Shown here in pieces: positions 4,049 through 21,395 of a stretch of DNA of 21,395 nt. The position numbers were made by a program, and so were the translations under genes. The stretch's first letter is position 1; each line of letters begins with the position of its first letter. Source of the stretch: a virus; IMG/VR virus record IMGVR_UViG_3300025695_000114, positions 1 to 21,395 of that record, one strand, 5' to 3'. Below the pieces are notes generated by a model. The model was not told the origin of the DNA and searched no databases. It saw nothing but the letters and a program-made list of their open reading frames with translations.

Positions 4049-4071
4049 ACAAACAGATAAAAACTATTAAT

Positions 4072-4100
4072 AAAGCACTCTATTTTAGGGTGCTTTTTTT
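4072..4100 (+). terminator. Strong terminator of the small-gene operon
   Basis: An 11-bp stem (4072-4082 with 4086-4096, one G-T wobble) closes a TTT loop, and the T-tract extends to 4100. This is the clearest intrinsic terminator in the window, and it separates the small-gene operon from the non-coding block and the tail genes. Confidence 0.92.
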
Positions 4101-4255
4101 ATGCAATTATTTTTGTAATGCTCTGTAAATATATATAAGTATGAATTGTGGGAATAACACCCCCTTTTAACCCCTTTTAAGCCACTTTCTCCACTCCTAT
4201 ATACTTAAGTGTCACTTACTTATAGATAGGCTCTTATATCGTCTCTAAATAGATA

Positions 4256-4287
4256 TTTGACATATGCAAGTAATTAACGTATTTTTA
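4256..4287 (+). promoter_or_regulatory. Candidate promoter inside the non-coding block
   Basis: TTTG at 4256-4259 and TATTTTTA at 4280-4287, 20 bp apart, match the Bacteroidota pattern TTTG / TAnnTTTG with only the last base wrong. TTGACA (4257-4262) also overlaps. If active, it would give a leader of about 610 nt ahead of the tail operon, or a separate non-coding RNA. Confidence 0.4.
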
Positions 4288-4504
4288 ATATTAGGGTGGT
4301 TGAGTTATTAGGTTTGGTGATTTCAACGTAAATTGAAGGAGGGGTGGGTTGAGTTATTCAATTTTATGTTTTCATTAATTTTGATTAGTTGTATGGTTAA
4401 TGCCTCGAAGCCTCAAAGCGAGAGAGGCATTTAACAATTGTGATAAAGGGGTTATTTGTTTATAGTTGTGATTGTGTCTGCCTCTTTGGGAGGGCAGCCC
4501 CAAC

Positions 4505-4542
4505 ATTATTATATGTGTTATATATTATTATAGGTGTTATAT
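4505..4542. repeat. 19-bp tandem repeat, two copies
   Basis: ATTATTATATGTGTTATAT (4505-4523) is followed immediately by a second copy (4524-4542) differing at one base (T to G at the tenth position). The 19-bp period equals the spacing inside the iteron pairs at 1972-2089, and both contain TGTT followed by A/T-rich bases, but the match is too loose to call one family. Confidence 0.7.
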
Positions 4543-4768
4543 GCACCCCCCTATTTGTTTTAGAATGTCTTTGCTAATAGACTTGTTAGCGTCTGTGGTA
4601 CGGTTGGGTGAATAGTTACTGGGGTGCTACGAAAACAACAAAGGATGTAACTGCAATTCCAACGGATAGATTTATCTGAACCAACAAGTGTGTAAGTTAC
4701 TCGAACTATCTTGAAGTTTATAGGGGTTTATCCCGTCTGTAGATTGAGGTCTATTTAACCCCCTACAT

Positions 4769-4780
4769 TATAATACCAAA
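4769..4780 (-). promoter_or_regulatory. Inverted copy of the TTTGGTATTATA element
   Basis: TATAATACCAAA on the plus strand is the exact reverse complement of the first 12 bases of the element at 4876-4891 and 16289-16304. The two copies in this block face each other across about 95 bp. Confidence 0.45.
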
Positions 4781-4875
4781 AAGTTACGATTTTGTTTTTA
4801 TTATTCATATTAGTATTGATAGATATTTCTTATAGTGGTATAAGGGAAACTTATAGGAGAACAAAAACAGTTTAA

Positions 4876-4891
4876 TTTGGTATTATAGTAT
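4876..4891 (+). promoter_or_regulatory. 16-bp element TTTGGTATTATAGTAT before the tail operon
   Basis: This 16-mer lies 12 bp upstream of the chaperone start (4904) and is repeated exactly at 16289-16304, directly at the start of the gene at 16303. Two exact copies in front of structural genes suggest a phage promoter or operator. It lacks the host TAnnTTTG box. Confidence 0.5.
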
Positions 4892-4903
4892 AAATAAAGA
4901 AAT

Positions 4904-5620
4904 ATGGGTGAGTTTAAAATTTCATTGCCTCTGTCTATTAACGATATTAAGTTAAAGGACTATCAAGAGTATATGAAAGTTTATGATGCGAACAAGGATG
5001 TTGATGACGCTAATTTCCTTGAGTTAAAGTTACTGGAGATAATATGTAAGATTGAATTGTTGGAGGCGAATAAAATGCCTTTTGAAGCATTTAATTCAAC
5101 TCTTGAGTATATGTCAGAAATATTCCAAGAGAAGACTCCATTGGTTAGGAGGTTTAAGTTAAGGGGGTCTGATGATGTGACTGCTGAATTTGGTTTCATA
5201 CCAAACTTGTCAAAGATGTCATTAGGGGAGTATGTTGATTTAGACACTTACATTGGCGATATGCAGACAATGCACAAGGCTATGGCTATATTATTTAGAC
5301 CAGTACATAAGTCTTGGGATGGTAAGGAGCATTATAGGATTGCAGAGTATGAAGGGACAGAGAAGTATGCGGAGGTAATGAAGGAGATGCCATTGGGGAT
5401 TGCATTAGGGGCGATGGTTTTTTTTTATCGTTTAGGAATGAAATTGTCGAAGCATATGATGAGTTATTCTCTTCAACTTCTGGAGAAGGAGGAGTTATCG
5501 GAGGAGCAGAGTCAGCGTTTGCGGAGAGATATGGATGGTATCAAAGCCTCTATGCCCTTGCTGGAGGAAATGCACTCCGATTTGGGAAGGTTACCAATTT
5601 ACAGATACACGAGGCGTTAA
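4904..5620 (+). CDS. Tail assembly chaperone, short form (gpG-like)
   Basis: A 238-residue protein that would bind the tape measure and recruit tail tube subunits, like lambda gpG. Identification rests on position at the head of the tail operon, the mixed charged-helical character, and a -1 extension with a typical chaperone ending. The N-terminal region (LKDYQEYMKVYDANK) is followed by a mostly helical middle with SKMSLGEYVDLDTYI. Codons 172-174 (GTT TTT TTT) lie in a run of nine T. After it this frame gives a charged helical tail (LEKEELSEEQSQRLRRDMDG) ending in RYTRR, while the -1 frame stays open to 5691. No Shine-Dalgarno is present, and the 16-bp element at 4876-4891 lies just upstream. 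The product family is inferred, not matched by a database search. Confidence 0.75.
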   Translation: MGEFKISLPLSINDIKLKDYQEYMKVYDANKDVDDANFLELKLLEIICKIELLEANKMPFEAFNSTLEYMSEIFQEKTPLVRRFKLRGSDDVTAEFGFIPNLSKMSLGEYVDLDTYIGDMQTMHKAMAILFRPVHKSWDGKEHYRIAEYEGTEKYAEVMKEMPLGIALGAMVFFYRLGMKLSKHMMSYSLQLLEKEELSEEQSQRLRRDMDGIKASMPLLEEMHSDLGRLPIYRYTRR

Positions 5621-5691
5621 CTTGGTTGCAGTTTGAGAAAGAGAAGAATAAATTAGAATCAGATAGGATTAAAAAAGCAAGTAGAAGATGA
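4904..5691 (+). CDS. Tail assembly chaperone, frameshifted long form (gpGT-like)
   Basis: A predicted -1 shift at TTT (5423-5425) joins residues 1-174 to a second frame read from 5425 to TGA 5689-5691, giving 262 residues. The 88-residue extension contains ERYGWYQSLYALAGGN and ALTWLQFEKEKNKLESDR. This is the G-W-Y ... LA-G-G ... LTWL-EKEK pattern I recognise from phage tail chaperones that follow gpG. The stop overlaps the next ATG by ATGA (5688-5691), just as real gene ends do elsewhere here. The two frames overlap for about 195 nt, so this stretch would code for two different C-termini. The alternative is an extra T in the homopolymer, in which case only the long form exists. Confidence 0.75.
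5418..5426 (+). other. T9 slippery run, -1 frameshift site
   Basis: Nine T residues include the ideal heptamer T TTT TTT (5419-5425) in the zero frame of the chaperone gene. P-site and A-site codons would both be TTT and re-pair perfectly after slipping back one base. Transcriptional slippage on the same run could also give mixed products. Confidence 0.75.
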
Positions 5692-6146
5692 GACAAGTAT
5701 ATAATGTGTTAGATGCCATTAAGGGTCATTTTGATAATGACCCAAATGTCAATCACGTTTCCTTTGGTGACTTTAGGAATGTAGACATTGATAAGACTAC
5801 AATATTCCCCGTATCCCACTTTTGGATGAATAAGGCATCTATGGAGGGCAGCACTATTCGTTTCACCATAGACCTTATGTGCTTGGATGTAGTTGACCAG
5901 ACTAAAGAGTATGAAAACTCATTCTATGGGGCTGACAACTTACAAGATGTCTTAAACACACAATTACAAGTTGTTAATGGGCTGATAGAGTCTGTTAGGG
6001 GCAATAGAGGTGCATTGGCGGAGCAACAGTATGTTTTGGTTAATAATCCAGAGGCAGAGATGTTGTATGAGGAGTTTGAGAATAAGTTAGCTGGGTGGGG
6101 AATATCTTTTGTTATAGATGTCCCTAATGATATAAGTAGCTGCTAA
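5688..6146 (+). CDS. Tail terminator or completion-like protein
   Basis: A 152-residue protein. It begins with a helix (VYNVLDAIKGHFDNDPNVN) followed by beta strands with FGDFRNVDIDKTTIFPVSHF, then TIRFTIDLMCLDVVD, a DNLQDVLNTQLQVVNGLIE helix and a strand near the C-terminus (GISFVIDVPND). This small alpha/beta layout recurs in Bacteroidota siphophages between chaperone and neck genes and resembles tail terminators such as lambda gpU, which cap the tail tube at the neck. The assignment comes from layout and position. The start overlaps the end of the frameshifted chaperone by ATGA, and the stop overlaps the next start by TAATG, so coupling on both sides is likely. Confidence 0.6.
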   Translation: MRQVYNVLDAIKGHFDNDPNVNHVSFGDFRNVDIDKTTIFPVSHFWMNKASMEGSTIRFTIDLMCLDVVDQTKEYENSFYGADNLQDVLNTQLQVVNGLIESVRGNRGALAEQQYVLVNNPEAEMLYEEFENKLAGWGISFVIDVPNDISSC

Positions 6147-10170: not shown

Positions 10171-12348
10171 ATGGCTTTGACTAATGAACAAAAGACATTA
10201 AGGCTAAAAGTAGAACTTGAAATAGCCCAAACTAATGCAAATGCTCAAAAACTTAAAGAAAGTTTAGGTAAGTTAGACTCTGGCTCAAATAAATATAAGG
10301 CTACCCTTGCGAAATTAAATCTTGAGGTACAGAAAAATATTAATGCGAATCAGCGGCTAAACCAAATGATGTTTAAGGTCAAGCAGACCCAAGAGACTCT
10401 TGATGTTAGCACCAAAGAAATGATAAATGGGAAAGACGGCAAAGGCGGTCTTTCTGGTGTTTCTGCTGCAAGTGGTAGTGCGTCTGCCGCAACTTTAGAG
10501 CTCGGTAGGGTTATTTCTGATGCACCATATGGTATTCGTGGGGTGGCAAATAACGTGTCACAGTTAGCATCAAACCTTGTTTATGCTTCAACAACAATCG
10601 ACGCTGCAACACAAAAAGCTATTGGCTTTAGTGGAGCGATGAAAGCAATGTGGGCATCTATAAAAGGGCCGCTTGGTATTTTGCTCGCTATTCAAGCGGC
10701 AGTTGCGGCATTAGATTACTTTTATGGTAGTACATCAAAAGCAAATGATGGGGCTTCTGAATTGGCTGATTCTGGAGTTACTGATATGACGGTAAAACTT
10801 GGCGTTCTTAAAAAAGCACTAAATGACACAAACCTTTCTTTAGATATTAAAAAAGAATTAGTTTCTGATGCTAATTCAGAAATAAAAGACTTAAACTTAA
10901 CATTAGATGAAAATGAACAATTAACCACAGCCTCTTCTGATGCTCTTGATGCTTATGTAGATAATCTAATGAAGGCTGCCCAAGCAGATGCTCTTGTTGA
11001 ACTAATGAAAGAGCAAGTAAAGGAGCAAATGAAGATAATGGCTTTAGGTGAAGATTCTTTAACTTGGTATGAATCACTTGGTGCGGTTGTGAGTAAGTTG
11101 GGTGGTGGTTTTGCTACGGCTCAATCCCAAGTGGCTCAAAACTTTAAATCTTCATTAGAAATATATAATAAATTCTATAAAACATTAACAGAAGGGGAAA
11201 ACCCAATCATAACGGGTCTTTTGGGAAAAGGCGGCAAGGATGGCAATGGAAAGAACAAAATAAAAAGGGAATTTAGGCAATTATTCCTTGACTTGGAAAA
11301 GGATATATTATCATTCCAAAAAAGAACAGAGCAAATAGACGAAAGGGGAGAGATAAAAAGACTTGAATTAAAGCATAAATATGAGCAAAAGGATTTAGAC
11401 TTAAAAAGGGATGCTTTCATTGAAAAGATGAATCAATCAAGAGCGCAGCAAGACGAATTGTTGGCTTTAGGCAAAATAAAATCTACTCAACACGGCAGAG
11501 CAATAGCAAAGATTGAGGAGTCTATTGCCGCTGCGAGTCTGGAACACGAAAGAGCGACTAATGAATTGTCTCTGGCTCAAATAGCTGAATATAATAATTT
11601 AAGGTATGATTTGATGATAGAGCAAAACTCAAGAGCAGCACAAGCTACTTTTGAGCGTGATGCTGCTGAAAACTCTTTAGAGCAAGAAAAGACCTTAAAT
11701 TCTTTAGAAAGAATAGACTTAAAAAGACAAGCCGAAGAAGATAGCTGGGCTAATGAGCAAAGAATATTTCAAGAAAGAATAGATGCGGCAGTTCGAAATA
11801 ATGAAGACATAAGCGTAATACAACAAGAGTCTGAAGCTGGTCTTGCTGAACATCAAGCAAATATGGTTGCTATTGATGAGTCTGCAATACAAGCAAGAAT
11901 TAACGCACTTGGTCATTATGGGGATGCTGCAAAAGGGCTATCAACTCTTCTTGGAGAACAGACGGAAATAGGAAAGATGTTTGCGATTGCTGCTGCAACA
12001 ATTGACACATATGCTGCTGCAAACAAAGTTCTTAATGACGAGACAATACCGAGTACGGCAGCAAGAGTTGCTGCTATGATTGCAGTAATATCTACTGGTA
12101 TTGCTAATGTTAGAAATATATCAAAGACAGAAGTGCCAACAAAAGGCGCTGGTGGCGGTGTCTCTCAAGCTGCTGGGGCAACAACCTTCAACCCAAACTT
12201 TAACATAGTGGGGGCGAGTGGTAGAAACCAATTAGCGGAAACAGTAGCTGGTCAAGTCGGTGAACCAACAAGAGCGTATGTTGTTTATGACGATATAGCG
12301 ACTGCTGGTGAGATAGAGGCAAATGCCATTCAAGCATCTGGAATATAA
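10171..12348 (+). CDS. Tail tape measure protein
   Basis: A 725-residue protein. Residues 1-80 form a charged coiled-coil start, followed by a Gly/Ser/Ala-rich linker (about 85-110) and LGRVISDAPYGIRGVANNVS, a motif common near the start of tape measures. A hydrophobic segment, GPLGILLAIQAAVAALDYFY (166-185), could insert into the host membrane. Long Glu/Lys/Gln-rich coiled coils follow (about 370-560), then an Ala-rich hydrophobic stretch (IAAATIDTYAAANK ... AAMIAVISTGIANV) and a Gly-rich C-terminus. This is the usual design of a tape measure, which sets tail length and is ejected with DNA. At about 0.15 nm per residue it predicts a tail near 110 nm. The gene lies after, not before, the tail-tip candidates. 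Confidence 0.85.
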   Translation: MALTNEQKTLRLKVELEIAQTNANAQKLKESLGKLDSGSNKYKATLAKLNLEVQKNINANQRLNQMMFKVKQTQETLDVSTKEMINGKDGKGGLSGVSAASGSASAATLELGRVISDAPYGIRGVANNVSQLASNLVYASTTIDAATQKAIGFSGAMKAMWASIKGPLGILLAIQAAVAALDYFYGSTSKANDGASELADSGVTDMTVKLGVLKKALNDTNLSLDIKKELVSDANSEIKDLNLTLDENEQLTTASSDALDAYVDNLMKAAQADALVELMKEQVKEQMKIMALGEDSLTWYESLGAVVSKLGGGFATAQSQVAQNFKSSLEIYNKFYKTLTEGENPIITGLLGKGGKDGNGKNKIKREFRQLFLDLEKDILSFQKRTEQIDERGEIKRLELKHKYEQKDLDLKRDAFIEKMNQSRAQQDELLALGKIKSTQHGRAIAKIEESIAAASLEHERATNELSLAQIAEYNNLRYDLMIEQNSRAAQATFERDAAENSLEQEKTLNSLERIDLKRQAEEDSWANEQRIFQERIDAAVRNNEDISVIQQESEAGLAEHQANMVAIDESAIQARINALGHYGDAAKGLSTLLGEQTEIGKMFAIAAATIDTYAAANKVLNDETIPSTAARVAAMIAVISTGIANVRNISKTEVPTKGAGGGVSQAAGATTFNPNFNIVGASGRNQLAETVAGQVGEPTRAYVVYDDIATAGEIEANAIQASGI

Positions 12349-12392: not shown

Positions 12393-13295
12393 ATGAGAAA
12401 TTTAGATGATTTAGAAACAATAGAGTTATTCATCGATGATGAAGACAATAGTGGGATAGAGGCAATCTCTTTGGTTGAATTTCCAGCCATAGAAGAGAAT
12501 TTTATTGCTCTGTCGGAGCATAAAATTGAATTAAAGACTATGGATGAGGAGAAACGCCTTGTTATTGGTCTTGCTCTTGTCCCAGATAAGAAGATTTACC
12601 GCAACAACGGTGGGTTTGAGTATAATATAACATTTAGTAAAGATACTGTCCGTAAAGCGTCTGAAAAGTACCTTAAATCACTTAAAATACATAATGCAAC
12701 CATTGAACACGAAATGGAAGTCGATGGGGTGTTTTTAACGGAGTCTTGGATTGTAGAAGACAATGCTAAAGACAAGACTGCCTTATATGGCTTGAATGCG
12801 GTTGAAGGTTCTTGGGCGGTTGCTATGCGAGTTGAGAATGATGAGGTTTGGGAAGATGTTAAGGCTGGTCGCTATTTAGGTTTCTCTATTGAGGGCATAT
12901 TCAATGAGAATAAAGGATGGGATGAGGCAGATTTATCTGCTATGAGCAAAATAAATCAATTATTAGACGAGTTAAAGTCCTATGAGGAGTTGGCTTCATA
13001 TAGTGACTATCCAGAGGCTGCTAAAAATAACGCCAAGAGAGCGTTGAAATGGGCAGATGAAAATGGCTGGGGAAGTTGTGGAACTGATGTCGGTAAGCAA
13101 AGAGCAAATCAATTGGCTAAAGGAGAGGCAATCACAAGAGATACTATTGCTCGTATGGCAAGTTTCAAGCGTCATCAACAACACAAAGATGTTGCCTATT
13201 CAGAAGGATGTGGTGGACTTATGTGGGATGCTTGGGGCGGAAGTGCTGGCGTTGAATGGGCTATCCGCAAATTAGAACAGATAGACAATGAGTAG
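12393..13295 (+). CDS. XkdF-like prohead protease with an extra C-terminal domain
   Basis: A 300-residue protein with two parts. Residues about 20-170 match the XkdF/S78-type prohead protease pattern: ISLVEFPAIEENF, IGLALVPDKKIYR, TIEHEMEVDGVFLTESWI (H106 a candidate catalytic His), GSWAVAMRVENDEVWEDVKA and RYLGFSIEGIF (S165 a candidate nucleophile). It would cleave scaffold and capsid parts during maturation. Residues about 203-298 form a separate domain, YPEAAKNNAKRALKWADENG ... CGTDVGKQRANQLAKGE ... GCGGLMWDAWGGSAGVEWA, that I recognise from other phage head proteins but whose function is unknown to me. A helical linker joins the parts. The gene lies upstream of the scaffold and major capsid genes, as expected. 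The next gene starts at 13288, inside its end. Confidence 0.8.
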   Translation: MRNLDDLETIELFIDDEDNSGIEAISLVEFPAIEENFIALSEHKIELKTMDEEKRLVIGLALVPDKKIYRNNGGFEYNITFSKDTVRKASEKYLKSLKIHNATIEHEMEVDGVFLTESWIVEDNAKDKTALYGLNAVEGSWAVAMRVENDEVWEDVKAGRYLGFSIEGIFNENKGWDEADLSAMSKINQLLDELKSYEELASYSDYPEAAKNNAKRALKWADENGWGSCGTDVGKQRANQLAKGEAITRDTIARMASFKRHQQHKDVAYSEGCGGLMWDAWGGSAGVEWAIRKLEQIDNE

Positions 13296-15668: not shown

Positions 15669-16205
15669 ATGGCTTGTGAAAATTTATCATTAGGGAGATT
15701 GAAGCCTTGTAAGGATACGGTTGGGGGTATTAAGAACATCTACTTCGTTGACTACGGAGATATTCCTTCATCGGGATTCGTATACAATGCAACAGACACA
15801 GATGTAATTGACACCCTTGCTGGAACTTTCAGTGCGTACAAGTATGAAGTACATTTCTCTTCATCTTTCACGCAAAACATTCAATCCTCTATGGAAAACG
15901 GGACTACTGCTTTCGAGCAAGTCCTTGAAGTTACATTACCAAAACTAACAAAAGAAGACCACAAAGAACTTAAATTGATTTCTTTCGGTCATCCTCACGT
16001 TATCGTAGAAGACCAAAATGGCAACTTCTTCGTATCTGGGCTTTTGAATGGTATGTCAGTTACTGGCGGAACAATCGTTACTGGACTTAATATGGGAGAT
16101 TTAAGCGGATATACTCTTACCTTGACTGGTATGGAGAAAGTACCAGCAAACTTCCTTGACACCAATATCGTTGACGCTGGTGGAACAATCGTTTCTGGAA
16201 CGTAA
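15669..16205 (+). CDS. Probable major tail tube protein
   Basis: A 178-residue beta-rich protein. It starts with ACENLSLGRLKPCKDTVGGI and continues with IYFVDYGDI, TDVIDTLAGTFSAYKYEVHF and ENGTTAFEQVLEVTLPKL. The last third contains HPHVIVEDQNGNFFVSGLLN and GDLSGYTLTLTGMEKVPANF. This set of motifs is one I recognise as a conserved structural protein of flavobacterial siphophages, and its size, the TGGTI and GYTLTLTG strands and the two hairpins that isolate it fit an abundant tail tube subunit. It lies directly after the capsid gene, far from the rest of the tail module at 4904-12348. Codon use resembles the capsid gene in part (ATC, AAC, CTT). The exact role is inferred. Confidence 0.65.
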   Translation: MACENLSLGRLKPCKDTVGGIKNIYFVDYGDIPSSGFVYNATDTDVIDTLAGTFSAYKYEVHFSSSFTQNIQSSMENGTTAFEQVLEVTLPKLTKEDHKELKLISFGHPHVIVEDQNGNFFVSGLLNGMSVTGGTIVTGLNMGDLSGYTLTLTGMEKVPANFLDTNIVDAGGTIVSGT

Positions 16206-16651: not shown

Positions 16652-18367
16652 ATGGACAAGAATAGAAATATAAGAGTAGTTAATCTTGCCGATTATGAGA
16701 GACCTAACATTTATGAGGTTAATCATAAGGAATGGGTTATGTATGGTGACGGGAATGACTATTTCGATGTCATTATCGAGAGGTATTTAGGGTCACCAAC
16801 CAATGCTCGATGTGTTAACGGGATTAGCGATATGATTTTCGGGCGAGGTCTTGAAGCCGTAGACCGAAATATCAATAGAGATTCTTATATTGAAATGAAG
16901 CGTCTTATAGACGAGAGAGAATTAAGAAAGATTGTAGGGGATAGAAAGTTATTGGGTCAAGGGGCTATTAAAGTTGTCTATAACAAGACCAAAACAAAGG
17001 TTATTGCTATTAAGCATCACCCTATGGAGACTCTTCGGGCTGAAAAGACTTCTGACGGTTGCATTAAGGCTTATTACTATCACCCCAAGTGGGCTGAAAT
17101 CAAGCCAAGTGAGAAGCCAAAGCGCATCCCTACATTTGGCAACGGTAGCAAGAGTGATACAGTTGAATTATACATTGTAAGACCATATATTAGTGGTTTT
17201 TACTACTATTCACCTTGTGATTACCAATCTTCATTACAATATAGTCAATTAGAGGAAGAGGTATCAAATTATCACCTCTCAAATATAGAAAATGGTCTTC
17301 AGCCTTCACTTTTAATCAACTTTAACAATGGGCAGCCTTCAGAGGAGGTTCAAGAGATGTTAGAGAGAAAGATTATGGAGAAGTTTAGCGGTTCTTCTAA
17401 TGCTGGTAAGTTTATATTGGCATTTAACGAGGATAAAGATGCCGCAGCGACTGTTGATGCGGTGCATTTACCAGATGCACACGCACAATATCAGTTTTTA
17501 GCTGATGAGAGTCGTGAAAAGATTATGTTAGGTCACGGGATTGTTTCCCCTATCCTTTTAGGGATTAAAGATAATACTGGTTTTGGTAATAATGCCGAAG
17601 AATTGCGTACTGCGTCTATTCTGATGGATAATATCGTTATCAGACCATTCCAACAGAACATTATTAATGCTTTAGATGACATTTTAGCGTTCAATAACAT
17701 CTTTTTATCACTTTACTTTGTTACTCTTCAGCCAATCGAGTTTGTTGAGTTAGATAATATCTCTACAAGTGTTGTAAAAGAGCAAGAAACGGGTGAAAAG
17801 TTGTCTTCAGACAAGAATGACCTAACAGACGAGCAGTTTGATGACCTATTTAGCCAATTAGAGGCGTTAGGAGAGAAGATTGATGACTCTTGGGAGTTAG
17901 TACACAGTTGTGATGCTGAAACGGGCGTAGAACTCGCTGATGCGAATCCAGATGCCTCGTCTATTGAAGACAAAGGCATCTATAAGGTGAGATATGCTTA
18001 TGTACCCGTTAGACAGTCGAATGGAAGCCGACAATTCTGCAAAAGAATGGAAGGCTTAACATCAAGTGACATAGTTTTCCGCAAGGAGGACATCAATCAA
18101 ATGTCTTTTAGGGGTGTAAACAAGAAATTTGGTCATAACCAACAGAACTATTCACTTTTAAAGTACAAGGGCGGTAAAAACTGTCATCATTTCTGGGAAT
18201 TGAGAGTTTACAAGAAGATTGGTAGTGGTGAGATTAATATTGACGAGGCGGTAGAGAATGGTTTGATTTTACCAAACAATCCAGAGGAAATGGGTGTTAG
18301 ACCAATCGATATGCCAGAAGGTGGGGCTTTTTTGAAGCGGATGTTTAACAAAATACTTGGGAAATAA
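16652..18367 (+). CDS. Portal protein with a C-terminal extension
   Basis: A 571-residue protein. Residues 1-390 look like a portal: NARCVNGISDMIFGRGLEAV near the start, LGQGAIKVVYNKTKTKVIAI, then FYYYSPCDYQSSLQYSQLEE, VSNYHLSNIENGLQPSLLIN and GHGIVSPILLGIKDNTGFGN, typical of Bacteroidota phage portals. Portals form the dodecameric ring through which TerL packs DNA. Residues about 413-571 are an added part containing YKVRYAYVP (444-452), RQFCKRM, FRKEDINQMSFRGVNKKFG and KGGKNCHHFWELRVYKK (C511, H512, H513), a domain I associate with other phage head proteins, of unknown function. The adaptor gene starts at 18367, overlapping the stop by 1 base (TAATG). Confidence 0.8.
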   Translation: MDKNRNIRVVNLADYERPNIYEVNHKEWVMYGDGNDYFDVIIERYLGSPTNARCVNGISDMIFGRGLEAVDRNINRDSYIEMKRLIDERELRKIVGDRKLLGQGAIKVVYNKTKTKVIAIKHHPMETLRAEKTSDGCIKAYYYHPKWAEIKPSEKPKRIPTFGNGSKSDTVELYIVRPYISGFYYYSPCDYQSSLQYSQLEEEVSNYHLSNIENGLQPSLLINFNNGQPSEEVQEMLERKIMEKFSGSSNAGKFILAFNEDKDAAATVDAVHLPDAHAQYQFLADESREKIMLGHGIVSPILLGIKDNTGFGNNAEELRTASILMDNIVIRPFQQNIINALDDILAFNNIFLSLYFVTLQPIEFVELDNISTSVVKEQETGEKLSSDKNDLTDEQFDDLFSQLEALGEKIDDSWELVHSCDAETGVELADANPDASSIEDKGIYKVRYAYVPVRQSNGSRQFCKRMEGLTSSDIVFRKEDINQMSFRGVNKKFGHNQQNYSLLKYKGGKNCHHFWELRVYKKIGSGEINIDEAVENGLILPNNPEEMGVRPIDMPEGGAFLKRMFNKILGK

Positions 18368-19796: not shown

Positions 19797-19961
19797 ATGG
19801 CAGATATATATCACAGAACTTGGTGGGGCAACGCTACTAATTTAATTTATTGGGGTGATGTTTACTATGCTCCTTATACAACAAACAAGTTATATGTAAG
19901 GGTAGACTACTATGAGAATAGTGGGGAGACTGAAAAATTGTTGAATGATTTAATTTGCTAA
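19797..19961 (+). CDS. 54-residue aromatic-rich protein
   Basis: A short frame from ATG 19797 to TAA 19959-19961, directly after the membrane protein stop (TAA 19794-19796), encodes 54 residues very rich in Tyr and Trp (MADIYHRTWWGNATNLIYWG, VYYAPYTTNKLYVRVDYYEN). The next ATG lies one base after its stop. The tight packing supports it. It looks like a small strand-rich virion or fibre accessory protein, with no recognised family. Confidence 0.7.
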   Translation: MADIYHRTWWGNATNLIYWGDVYYAPYTTNKLYVRVDYYENSGETEKLLNDLIC

Positions 19962-19962
19962 T

Positions 19963-21395
19963 ATGAGTTTATTAAAGAAAGCGAATATTATAACGACCCC
20001 TACTGCTTATTCAGATGGTAAACTACATAGTGTAAAGCCAGAGATTGCTTTAGGGCCAGAACTTGTAACAAATGGTGATTTTGCAACGGATAGTGATTGG
20101 GATGAAACAGGAACTTGGAGTATAGAAAATAATTATGCAACTGCTAGTGGAAATGGTACATCTCAATATATACAACAAGACTTTACTATTACAAATGGAA
20201 AAGCATATTTATTTACTTATGAAATAAAAGAAAATACTTTAAATGGTGCTGGCTCGTCTTTAAGTGGTTCAGGTGGTTTTGTTCAAATATTTTTAAGTAA
20301 TGTAATAGGAACTCATCAAGTATATATAACTGCTGATGATTCAGGTGCTGCTTATGCTTTAAAAATAGGTGTATCAGCAACTGCAACAACAGGAACAATA
20401 AAAATAGACAACGTATCAATAAAAGAGGACATCTCCGCTGATTTCGATTTCACAAGAAATTCCTCAGCGACAAGAGTAAACGAATTAGGGTACATTGAAG
20501 ATGTTCAGATAATCGGGGGAGAGTTAGTATCTAATGGTGATTTTGAGGAAGTAGGAAGTGAGAAGGTTACTAATGGTGATTTTGCTACTGATAGTTATTG
20601 GTCGTTTATAGGGACTGCAAATATTAGCGGAGGTACTGCAAATTTCCCAGATACAACTAATAGTTATATTATTCAATCAAGTGTCGTTCCTTTATCAGTA
20701 AAACAATATCGCTTACAATATGAAGTAACTGATACAAATGGTGGCGGTTTGAAATTATCTGGCGGAAGTAGTGCTTTTGGCATTGTTAATTTACCTAGCA
20801 CTTTAGGTGTGCATACTGTGTATTTAACATCTAACGGCACAAGAAGTAATTTACAATTTAACAATATTGCTGCTTTCGCTGGCTCAATAGACAACGTATC
20901 GGTTAAAGAAGTCGGTCAGAATTGGAGTTTTATTGGAGAGGCAGAATTTATTGAAAGTGCTGCAAGGATTTATTCAAGTTCTGGTAGTGTTTCTGGCATT
21001 AACCAAAGTAGTGTTCTTACAATATCAAATAAGTATAGAATACAATACGAAATTGTTTCAAATACCAATGGAAGTCTTAAAATACAAGGTGTTCAAATAC
21101 CTTCAAGTGTTGGCACACATAGTTACGATTTTATCGCATCTTCAGCGGGTTTAGAAATATTAAGAGATAGCGGTGTAACAGACATCACAATAGACAACGT
21201 ATCAGTCAAAAAAATAACAGACGATACAAACCTACCAAGAATAAACTATGAAGGGGGTAAAGGGCATTTATTGCTTGAGGGGCAGTCAACGAATCTTGTG
21301 CCTTATTCAGAAGATTTTAGTCAATGGACTGCTGGCGGTGATACAACTATTGAAAGCGGTTATTTAGCACCAGACGGTACTAACAATGCCTACAA
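19963..21395 (+). CDS. Tail fibre or receptor-binding protein with repeated modules (3' truncated)
   Basis: An open frame from ATG 19963 reaches the right edge without a stop (477 complete codons). The first 30 residues (SLLKKANIITTPTAYSDGKL) look like a virion-attachment start. Three beta-rich, carbohydrate-binding-like modules follow at about 31-156, 200-316 and 320-417. The first two start with ELVTNGDFATDSDW or EKVTNGDFATDSYW, and all three end in IDNVS[IV]K. Between modules 1 and 2 sits ADFDFTRNSSATRVNELGYI, and after module 3 comes LPRINYEGGKGHLLLEGQST, two segments normally adjacent in phage fibres of this kind. The protein probably binds a host surface glycan. The C-terminal part lies outside the window, so any peptidase or depolymerase domain there cannot be seen. 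Confidence 0.8.
   Translation, partial: MSLLKKANIITTPTAYSDGKLHSVKPEIALGPELVTNGDFATDSDWDETGTWSIENNYATASGNGTSQYIQQDFTITNGKAYLFTYEIKENTLNGAGSSLSGSGGFVQIFLSNVIGTHQVYITADDSGAAYALKIGVSATATTGTIKIDNVSIKEDISADFDFTRNSSATRVNELGYIEDVQIIGGELVSNGDFEEVGSEKVTNGDFATDSYWSFIGTANISGGTANFPDTTNSYIIQSSVVPLSVKQYRLQYEVTDTNGGGLKLSGGSSAFGIVNLPSTLGVHTVYLTSNGTRSNLQFNNIAAFAGSIDNVSVKEVGQNWSFIGEAEFIESAARIYSSSGSVSGINQSSVLTISNKYRIQYEIVSNTNGSLKIQGVQIPSSVGTHSYDFIASSAGLEILRDSGVTDITIDNVSVKKITDDTNLPRINYEGGKGHLLLEGQSTNLVPYSEDFSQWTAGGDTTIESGYLAPDGTNNAY

Follow-up and report, generated by a model that had tools for sequence, protein, structure and literature searches.

A putative phage tail gene family with a conserved T9–T10 run, a −1 frame switch and selection on two overlapping C-termini

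Here we report a large, unannotated family of putative phage tail genes that appear to encode two isoforms diverging at a run of nine or ten Ts. In our overall reading, RNA polymerase slippage at the T9–T10 run sets the isoform ratio, at least one lineage has switched to a heptamer and both C-termini are selected over about 190 nt; taken as a whole, we give this reading an even chance. For the agent of the frame change, we favour transcriptional slippage, with ribosomal frameshifting a close second.

Frameshifted tail chaperones are generally treated as the textbook example of frameshifting by the ribosome in phages. Both tail chaperones with two isoforms and slippage on runs of nine nucleotides have been described before; as far as the open-access literature shows, what is new here is their likely combination, the strict T9–T10 rule, the heptamer lineage and the long, doubly selected overlap. 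A search of that open-access literature turned up no account of a phage tail chaperone that uses transcriptional slippage. If our reading is correct, RNA polymerase, rather than the translation machinery of the seemingly Flavobacteriia hosts, would set the isoform ratio, and the lineage that went from T9 to a heptamer would illustrate the replacement of one mechanism by another. The family also provides a clean case of a long same-strand overlap with measurable selection on both frames, and its frame-switched gene appears as two separate entries in the records of cultured phages.

Anatomy of the frame-switched gene

The window (the whole stretch of 21,395 nucleotides analysed here) contains one member of the family. 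Around positions 5418 to 5426 its sequence is GCGATGG-TTTTTTTTT-ATCG, and the codons at the T9 run are GTT (5417), TTT, TTT and TAT, which places a T TTT TTT heptamer in frame. The gene and its surroundings comprise the following features.

4904..5620, + strand: zero-frame gene (ORF, 238 residues; PHROG 32199 match), encoding the gpG-like short isoform of an inferred tail assembly chaperone
5418..5426, + strand: T9 frame-switching run, with the in-frame T TTT TTT at 5419–5425; present as T9 or T10 at 315 of the 316 distinct sites compared
5425..5691, + strand: −1 extension of 88 residues and a stop codon, the gpT-like domain of the 262-residue fusion; present in all 434 two-domain loci
5427..5617, + strand: dual-coding stretch, covering the second half of the predicted zero-frame hairpin and the first part of the −1 domain; constrained in both frames relative to controls
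5688..6146, + strand: next gene, whose ATG overlaps the −1 stop codon (ATGA); PHROG 30964, unknown function

The fusion consists of 174 shared residues followed by the 88 residues of the extension, and its TGA stop codon (5689–5691) lies within the ATGA at 5688–5691. The T9 run is the sole homopolymer of at least eight nucleotides within any long plus-strand ORF of the window. A preliminary description of this DNA had located the T9 run and its in-frame heptamer, had read the zero frame as open to 5620 and the −1 frame to 5691, had derived C-termini of 64 and 88 residues and products of 238 and 262 residues, and had noted that the −1 product ends in an ATGA overlapping the next gene; the window sequence bears out all of these coordinates and lengths. 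The approximately 850 bases 5′ of the gene (4049–4903) contain no long ORF, and a search of the window against Rfam gave no matches.

A conserved −1 relation and T9–T10 rule

Relatives were collected by protein scans of IMG/VR and of a genome collection, in which the N-domain and the −1 domain were each detected by their own profile. At least 434 loci carry both domains, the family itself being larger, and 316 distinct sites were compared among the loci listed. In all 434 of the two-domain loci listed, profile comparison finds the second domain to be read in the −1 frame, and the +1 frame closes within eight codons at all sites (median of three). The run is T9 at 256 of the 316 distinct sites listed and T10 at 59, whereas T7, T8 and runs longer than T10 are found at none, and across the sites it takes three phases relative to the codons. 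A search through all IMG/VR contigs for T7 or T8 preceding the commonest downstream context, ATCRTTTAGG, returned nine matches, none of them in this gene family. The −1 relation and the T9–T10 rule are thus conserved across the sequences compared.

Homopolymers are error-prone and hypermutable, and the frame change could on that account reflect a sequencing or assembly error, phase variation or a pseudogene. The preliminary description had itself named T8, T10 or a plain single frame as findings that would speak against a frame switch; T10 does occur in relatives, yet the relation is −1 in every one of the 434 loci, which come from many independent assemblies and include complete genomes of cultured phages. 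We regard error, phase variation and pseudogene as ruled out, with a negligible residual probability, because no related locus listed has both domains in one frame.

The sole lineage without a T-run among the 316 distinct sites listed comprises L086 and its near-twin L205, a contig from another metagenome. L086 (3502–3516) reads ATA AAT TTT ATG, in which A AAT TTT forms a heptamer at the codon of the usual switch and there is no homopolymer, and L205 (1305–1319) has A AAT TTT as well. At the protein level, L086 has N-F-M-K where V-F-F-Y is usual.

The nearest cultured relatives among the matches listed are the Nonlabens (Persicivirga) phages P12024S and P12024L. As in the window, their second domain lies in the −1 frame of a T-run, which here reads CTT TTT TTT TAT; unlike in the window, the zero-frame tail extends just about 25 codons past the run. 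In both records the locus is annotated as two hypothetical proteins, P12024S_38/_39 (L039:5881-6575) and P12024L_40/_41 (L040:2881-3575), each pair of which looks like one frame-switched gene. Bacterial assemblies contributed three further loci, under the labels Bacteroidetes, Flavobacterium and Winogradskyella. These labels, together with the Nonlabens phage relatives, suggest that the hosts of the phage family are probably Flavobacteriia. Cultured phages picked by terminase similarity (Riemerella and Bacteroides phages) differ in gene order and lack an annotated counterpart beside the terminase.

Polymerase slippage and ribosomal frameshifting

Either of two mechanisms could produce the −1 isoform, namely programmed transcriptional slippage on the T-run or programmed −1 ribosomal frameshifting at T TTT TTT, in the manner of lambda gpG/gpGT. 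A ribosomal T heptamer requires just seven Ts in one phase. The run in this family is never shorter than nine at the 315 sites that have it, even where the flanking codons vary, and the absence of T7 and T8, both from the 316 sites and from the hits of the targeted IMG/VR scan in this gene, argues against the ribosome as the agent. Baranov et al. (2005) give nine as the usual threshold for slippage, and regard nine-nucleotide runs whose length is conserved among homologues as a sign of purposeful slippage (PMC1088944). The combination described there, an A or T run of at least nine nucleotides with conserved length and the same ORF arrangement, is found at 315 of the 316 distinct sites.

The edges of the run point in the same direction. 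In the clade of L274 (AGT TTT TTT TTT CGT), a change from V to S drops a T and a change from Y to F restores the run, and in L237, L276 and L279 (TTT TTT TTT CTG), a change from Y to L drops a T and a change from V to F restores it. Leucine after two TTT codons is encoded by TTR (TTG or TTA) at 34 of 34 sites, whereas a CTN codon (CTG) is confined to sites with three preceding TTT codons (3 of 3; Fisher p = 1.3e-4, although these Leu sites fall into 8 clusters, so that the counts overstate independence); the expectation from the same genes is a CTN share of 41% of Leu codons. Run length, as judged from these substitutions, is maintained by compensation at its edges. Both the compensation and the TTR-only leucines weigh against the ribosomal reading, although the compensation cases may reflect few independent events.

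We also compared the run with 796 other ORFs (634 kb) of the related loci, using synonymous codon shuffles as the expectation. T9 or longer is absent from these ORFs (about 8 expected), A9 occurs 6 times (39 expected) and T8 occurs 4 times in all (0.11 of expected). By contrast, there are 33 instances of T7 with the heptamer in frame (0.54 of the expectation), so T TTT TTT in frame is tolerated in other ORFs, and T7 without the heptamer stands at 0.40 of expected. Off-phase T7 is therefore avoided at least as much as in-phase T7, which indicates that the avoidance tracks length and not frame. Replication slippage could, however, also explain the avoidance of long runs.

We did not find a stimulatory RNA structure downstream of the run, which further weakens the case for the ribosome. 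For stem-loops, to which the analysis was limited, the mean z-score over 60 sites is about −0.1 to −0.25 relative to shuffles, and in the window z is about 0 to 0.3, with no excess stability over shuffles.

On the other side, the frameshifts so far characterised in tail chaperones are made by the ribosome (PMC5009743), and an in-frame heptamer is present at 315 of the 316 distinct sites. Any run of at least nine Ts holds an in-frame ribosomal heptamer, so this heptamer is always present. The extra Ts could, under ribosomal frameshifting, reflect a constraint on the protein (hydrophobic before, aromatic after) or some unspecified aid to the ribosome; the protein can, however, do without V-F-F-Y, as shown by N-F-M-K in L086. 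The exception lineage also weighs against slippage, as its two contigs have, in place of a homopolymer and at the corresponding codon, the canonical X XXY YYZ heptamer A AAT TTT; the ribosome is thus apparently able to do the job in this family. In L086 and L205 the frame change is probably ribosomal. Polymerase and ribosome slippage could also act together.

Given at least nine Ts, compensation at the edges and no downstream RNA structure, transcriptional slippage fits better, and from the sequence comparisons we consider it somewhat the likelier agent; ribosomal frameshifting is a serious contender that we rate below even. The preliminary description had proposed two products made by −1 ribosomal frameshifting. 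The conserved −1 change holds in 434/434 loci, whereas the ribosome as its agent is not established, with a T-run of at least nine and no RNA structure.

Under transcriptional slippage, most transcripts would yield the 238-residue form, which would end in a helical hairpin. Some transcripts would gain one U (or lack two) through slippage of RNA polymerase at T9, and an ordinary ribosome reading the slipped transcript would enter the −1 frame to make the 262-residue form, with a different helical domain. After loss of one U or addition of two, translation would soon terminate, at most eight codons on. The two forms would probably act like the lambda gpG/gpGT pair, as tail assembly chaperones, and the replacement of the T-run by A AAT TTT in L086/L205 would represent a switch to ribosomal frameshifting. 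We infer the slippage at the polymerase level, the product ratio and the chaperone role.

Transcriptional slippage has been described for Shigella mxiE (a run of Us), in which an added nucleotide joins two overlapping ORFs, for Thermus dnaX (A9) and for IS elements with nine-nucleotide runs (PMC1088944). These systems share with the present family a length-conserved A or T run inside a coding region, whereas here the run belongs to a phage structural gene family, in which the un-slipped product is conserved through a long overlap. The dnaX homologues use ribosomal frameshifting in E. coli and transcriptional slippage in Thermus (PMC1088944). The T9 majority and the A AAT TTT lineage would parallel this pair, except that the switch proposed here from the sequences would have occurred inside one phage gene family.

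Selection on both C-termini

The zero-frame tail has a median length of about 57 codons. In principle it could be a passive by-product of the −1 frame with no function of its own, and substitution patterns in the overlap bear on this. In the overlap, changes among 81 independent sequence pairs fall at zero-frame positions 1, 2 and 3 in the proportions 0.21, 0.41 and 0.38, compared with 0.22, 0.11 and 0.68 in the upstream single-frame part. Position 2 in the overlap, equivalent to position 3 of the −1 codons, changes at 0.108 per codon, and third positions read in a single frame change faster (0.25 upstream and 0.155 in the −1-only end). Where a change is silent in the −1 frame, its effect on the zero-frame protein is conservative (BLOSUM −0.05 versus −0.92 expected), and such changes create few zero-frame stops (8 versus 51 expected). 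Reciprocally, changes silent in the zero frame create 15 stops in the −1 frame (46 expected). The upstream control for stop avoidance shows almost no effect (592 versus 610).

Open-frame length gives a similar result. The zero-frame tail has at least 50 open codons in 85 of 88 clusters, where synonymous resampling of the −1 codons predicts 14.8 ± 3.4. For the window alone, the probability that the zero frame would be open that far, given the −1 protein, is about 0.09, which is compatible with a passive tail, as are the short tails of some relatives: about 25 codons past the run in P12024S and P12024L, and only 6 in L198. Given these short tails, not every lineage needs the zero-frame tail. The conservative −1-silent changes, the scarcity of zero-frame stops, the long tails of most clusters and the confident helical model of the tail described below nevertheless make a passive tail improbable. 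As judged from these alignments, both C-termini are under purifying selection, and this constraint in both frames, together with the 85 long tails, shows that dual coding is real and typical of the family. The codon-substitution comparison with homologues suggested in the preliminary description thus finds constraint in both frames and a conserved zero-frame tail.

That description had also considered the overlap unusually long. The overlap is about 190 nt here, whereas in the SEA-PHAGES genomes analysed with PRFect the slip site and the in-frame stop are 26 nt apart on average (PMC10885494), and the long overlap is the rule rather than the exception within this phage family.

Structure predictions were made from alignments from which a phage-record sequence had been left out. 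AlphaFold models the 238-residue form with a mean pLDDT of 89.6 and a pTM of 0.82, in which residues 164 to 195 and 200 to 228 form two long helices that run into and through the overlap; the zero-frame tail is thus confidently predicted to form a helical hairpin. The −1 domain modelled alone is also helical, with lower confidence (pLDDT 77.6, pTM 0.49). PDB matches to the 238-residue model are generic helical hairpins, those to the −1 domain are at chance level only, and matches in BFVD are to uncharacterised phage proteins only, P12024S among these.

Identity and gene neighbourhood

The preliminary description had called the gene a tail chaperone gene. This identity is plausible and comes from anatomy rather than homology, because the gene, which belongs to a tailed phage, would produce a short and a −1-extended isoform of a protein that is mostly helical; as to named families, the one hit is PHROG 166 ('tail protein'), which matches 11 of 69 aligned members weakly (best E 0.0015). 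PHROG 32199, of unknown function, matches the zero-frame protein (E 7.8e-12) and all 69 of the aligned members. The window protein has no match in Pfam or NCBIfam at E thresholds of 0.01 and 0.05, and comparison of the zero-frame protein with Pfam, NCBIfam, PHROGs and the PDB, by sequence and by fold, found nothing specific to named tail chaperones.

The arrangement resembles lambda gpG/gpGT in having a short isoform and a −1 extension on a shared N-terminal part, in the structural module of a tailed phage, with an in-frame X XXY YYZ heptamer. It differs in that a sequence relation to the lambda proteins is undetectable, that 9–10 Ts rather than a heptamer are conserved, that both frames are selected over a long dual-coding overlap and that the gene does not adjoin the candidate tape measure gene. 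Genes of the structural module and candidate tail genes of the window are as follows.

466–1683: terminase
10171–12348: candidate tape measure gene, four genes further downstream of the frame-switched gene
12393–13295: head maturation protease-like gene
15669–16205: tail tube candidate
16652–18367: portal

Between 83 and 18873, the window has an unusual order, in which the terminase is followed by the frame-switched gene and presumed tail genes, and then by the protease, capsid and portal. Just past the terminase, the minus strand carries a 92-residue ORF without a PHROG match (1684–1962). At the other end, an ORF of at least 480 codons (19954–21395) runs off the window, with a match to the tail protein family PHROG 5939 near the end of the ORF.
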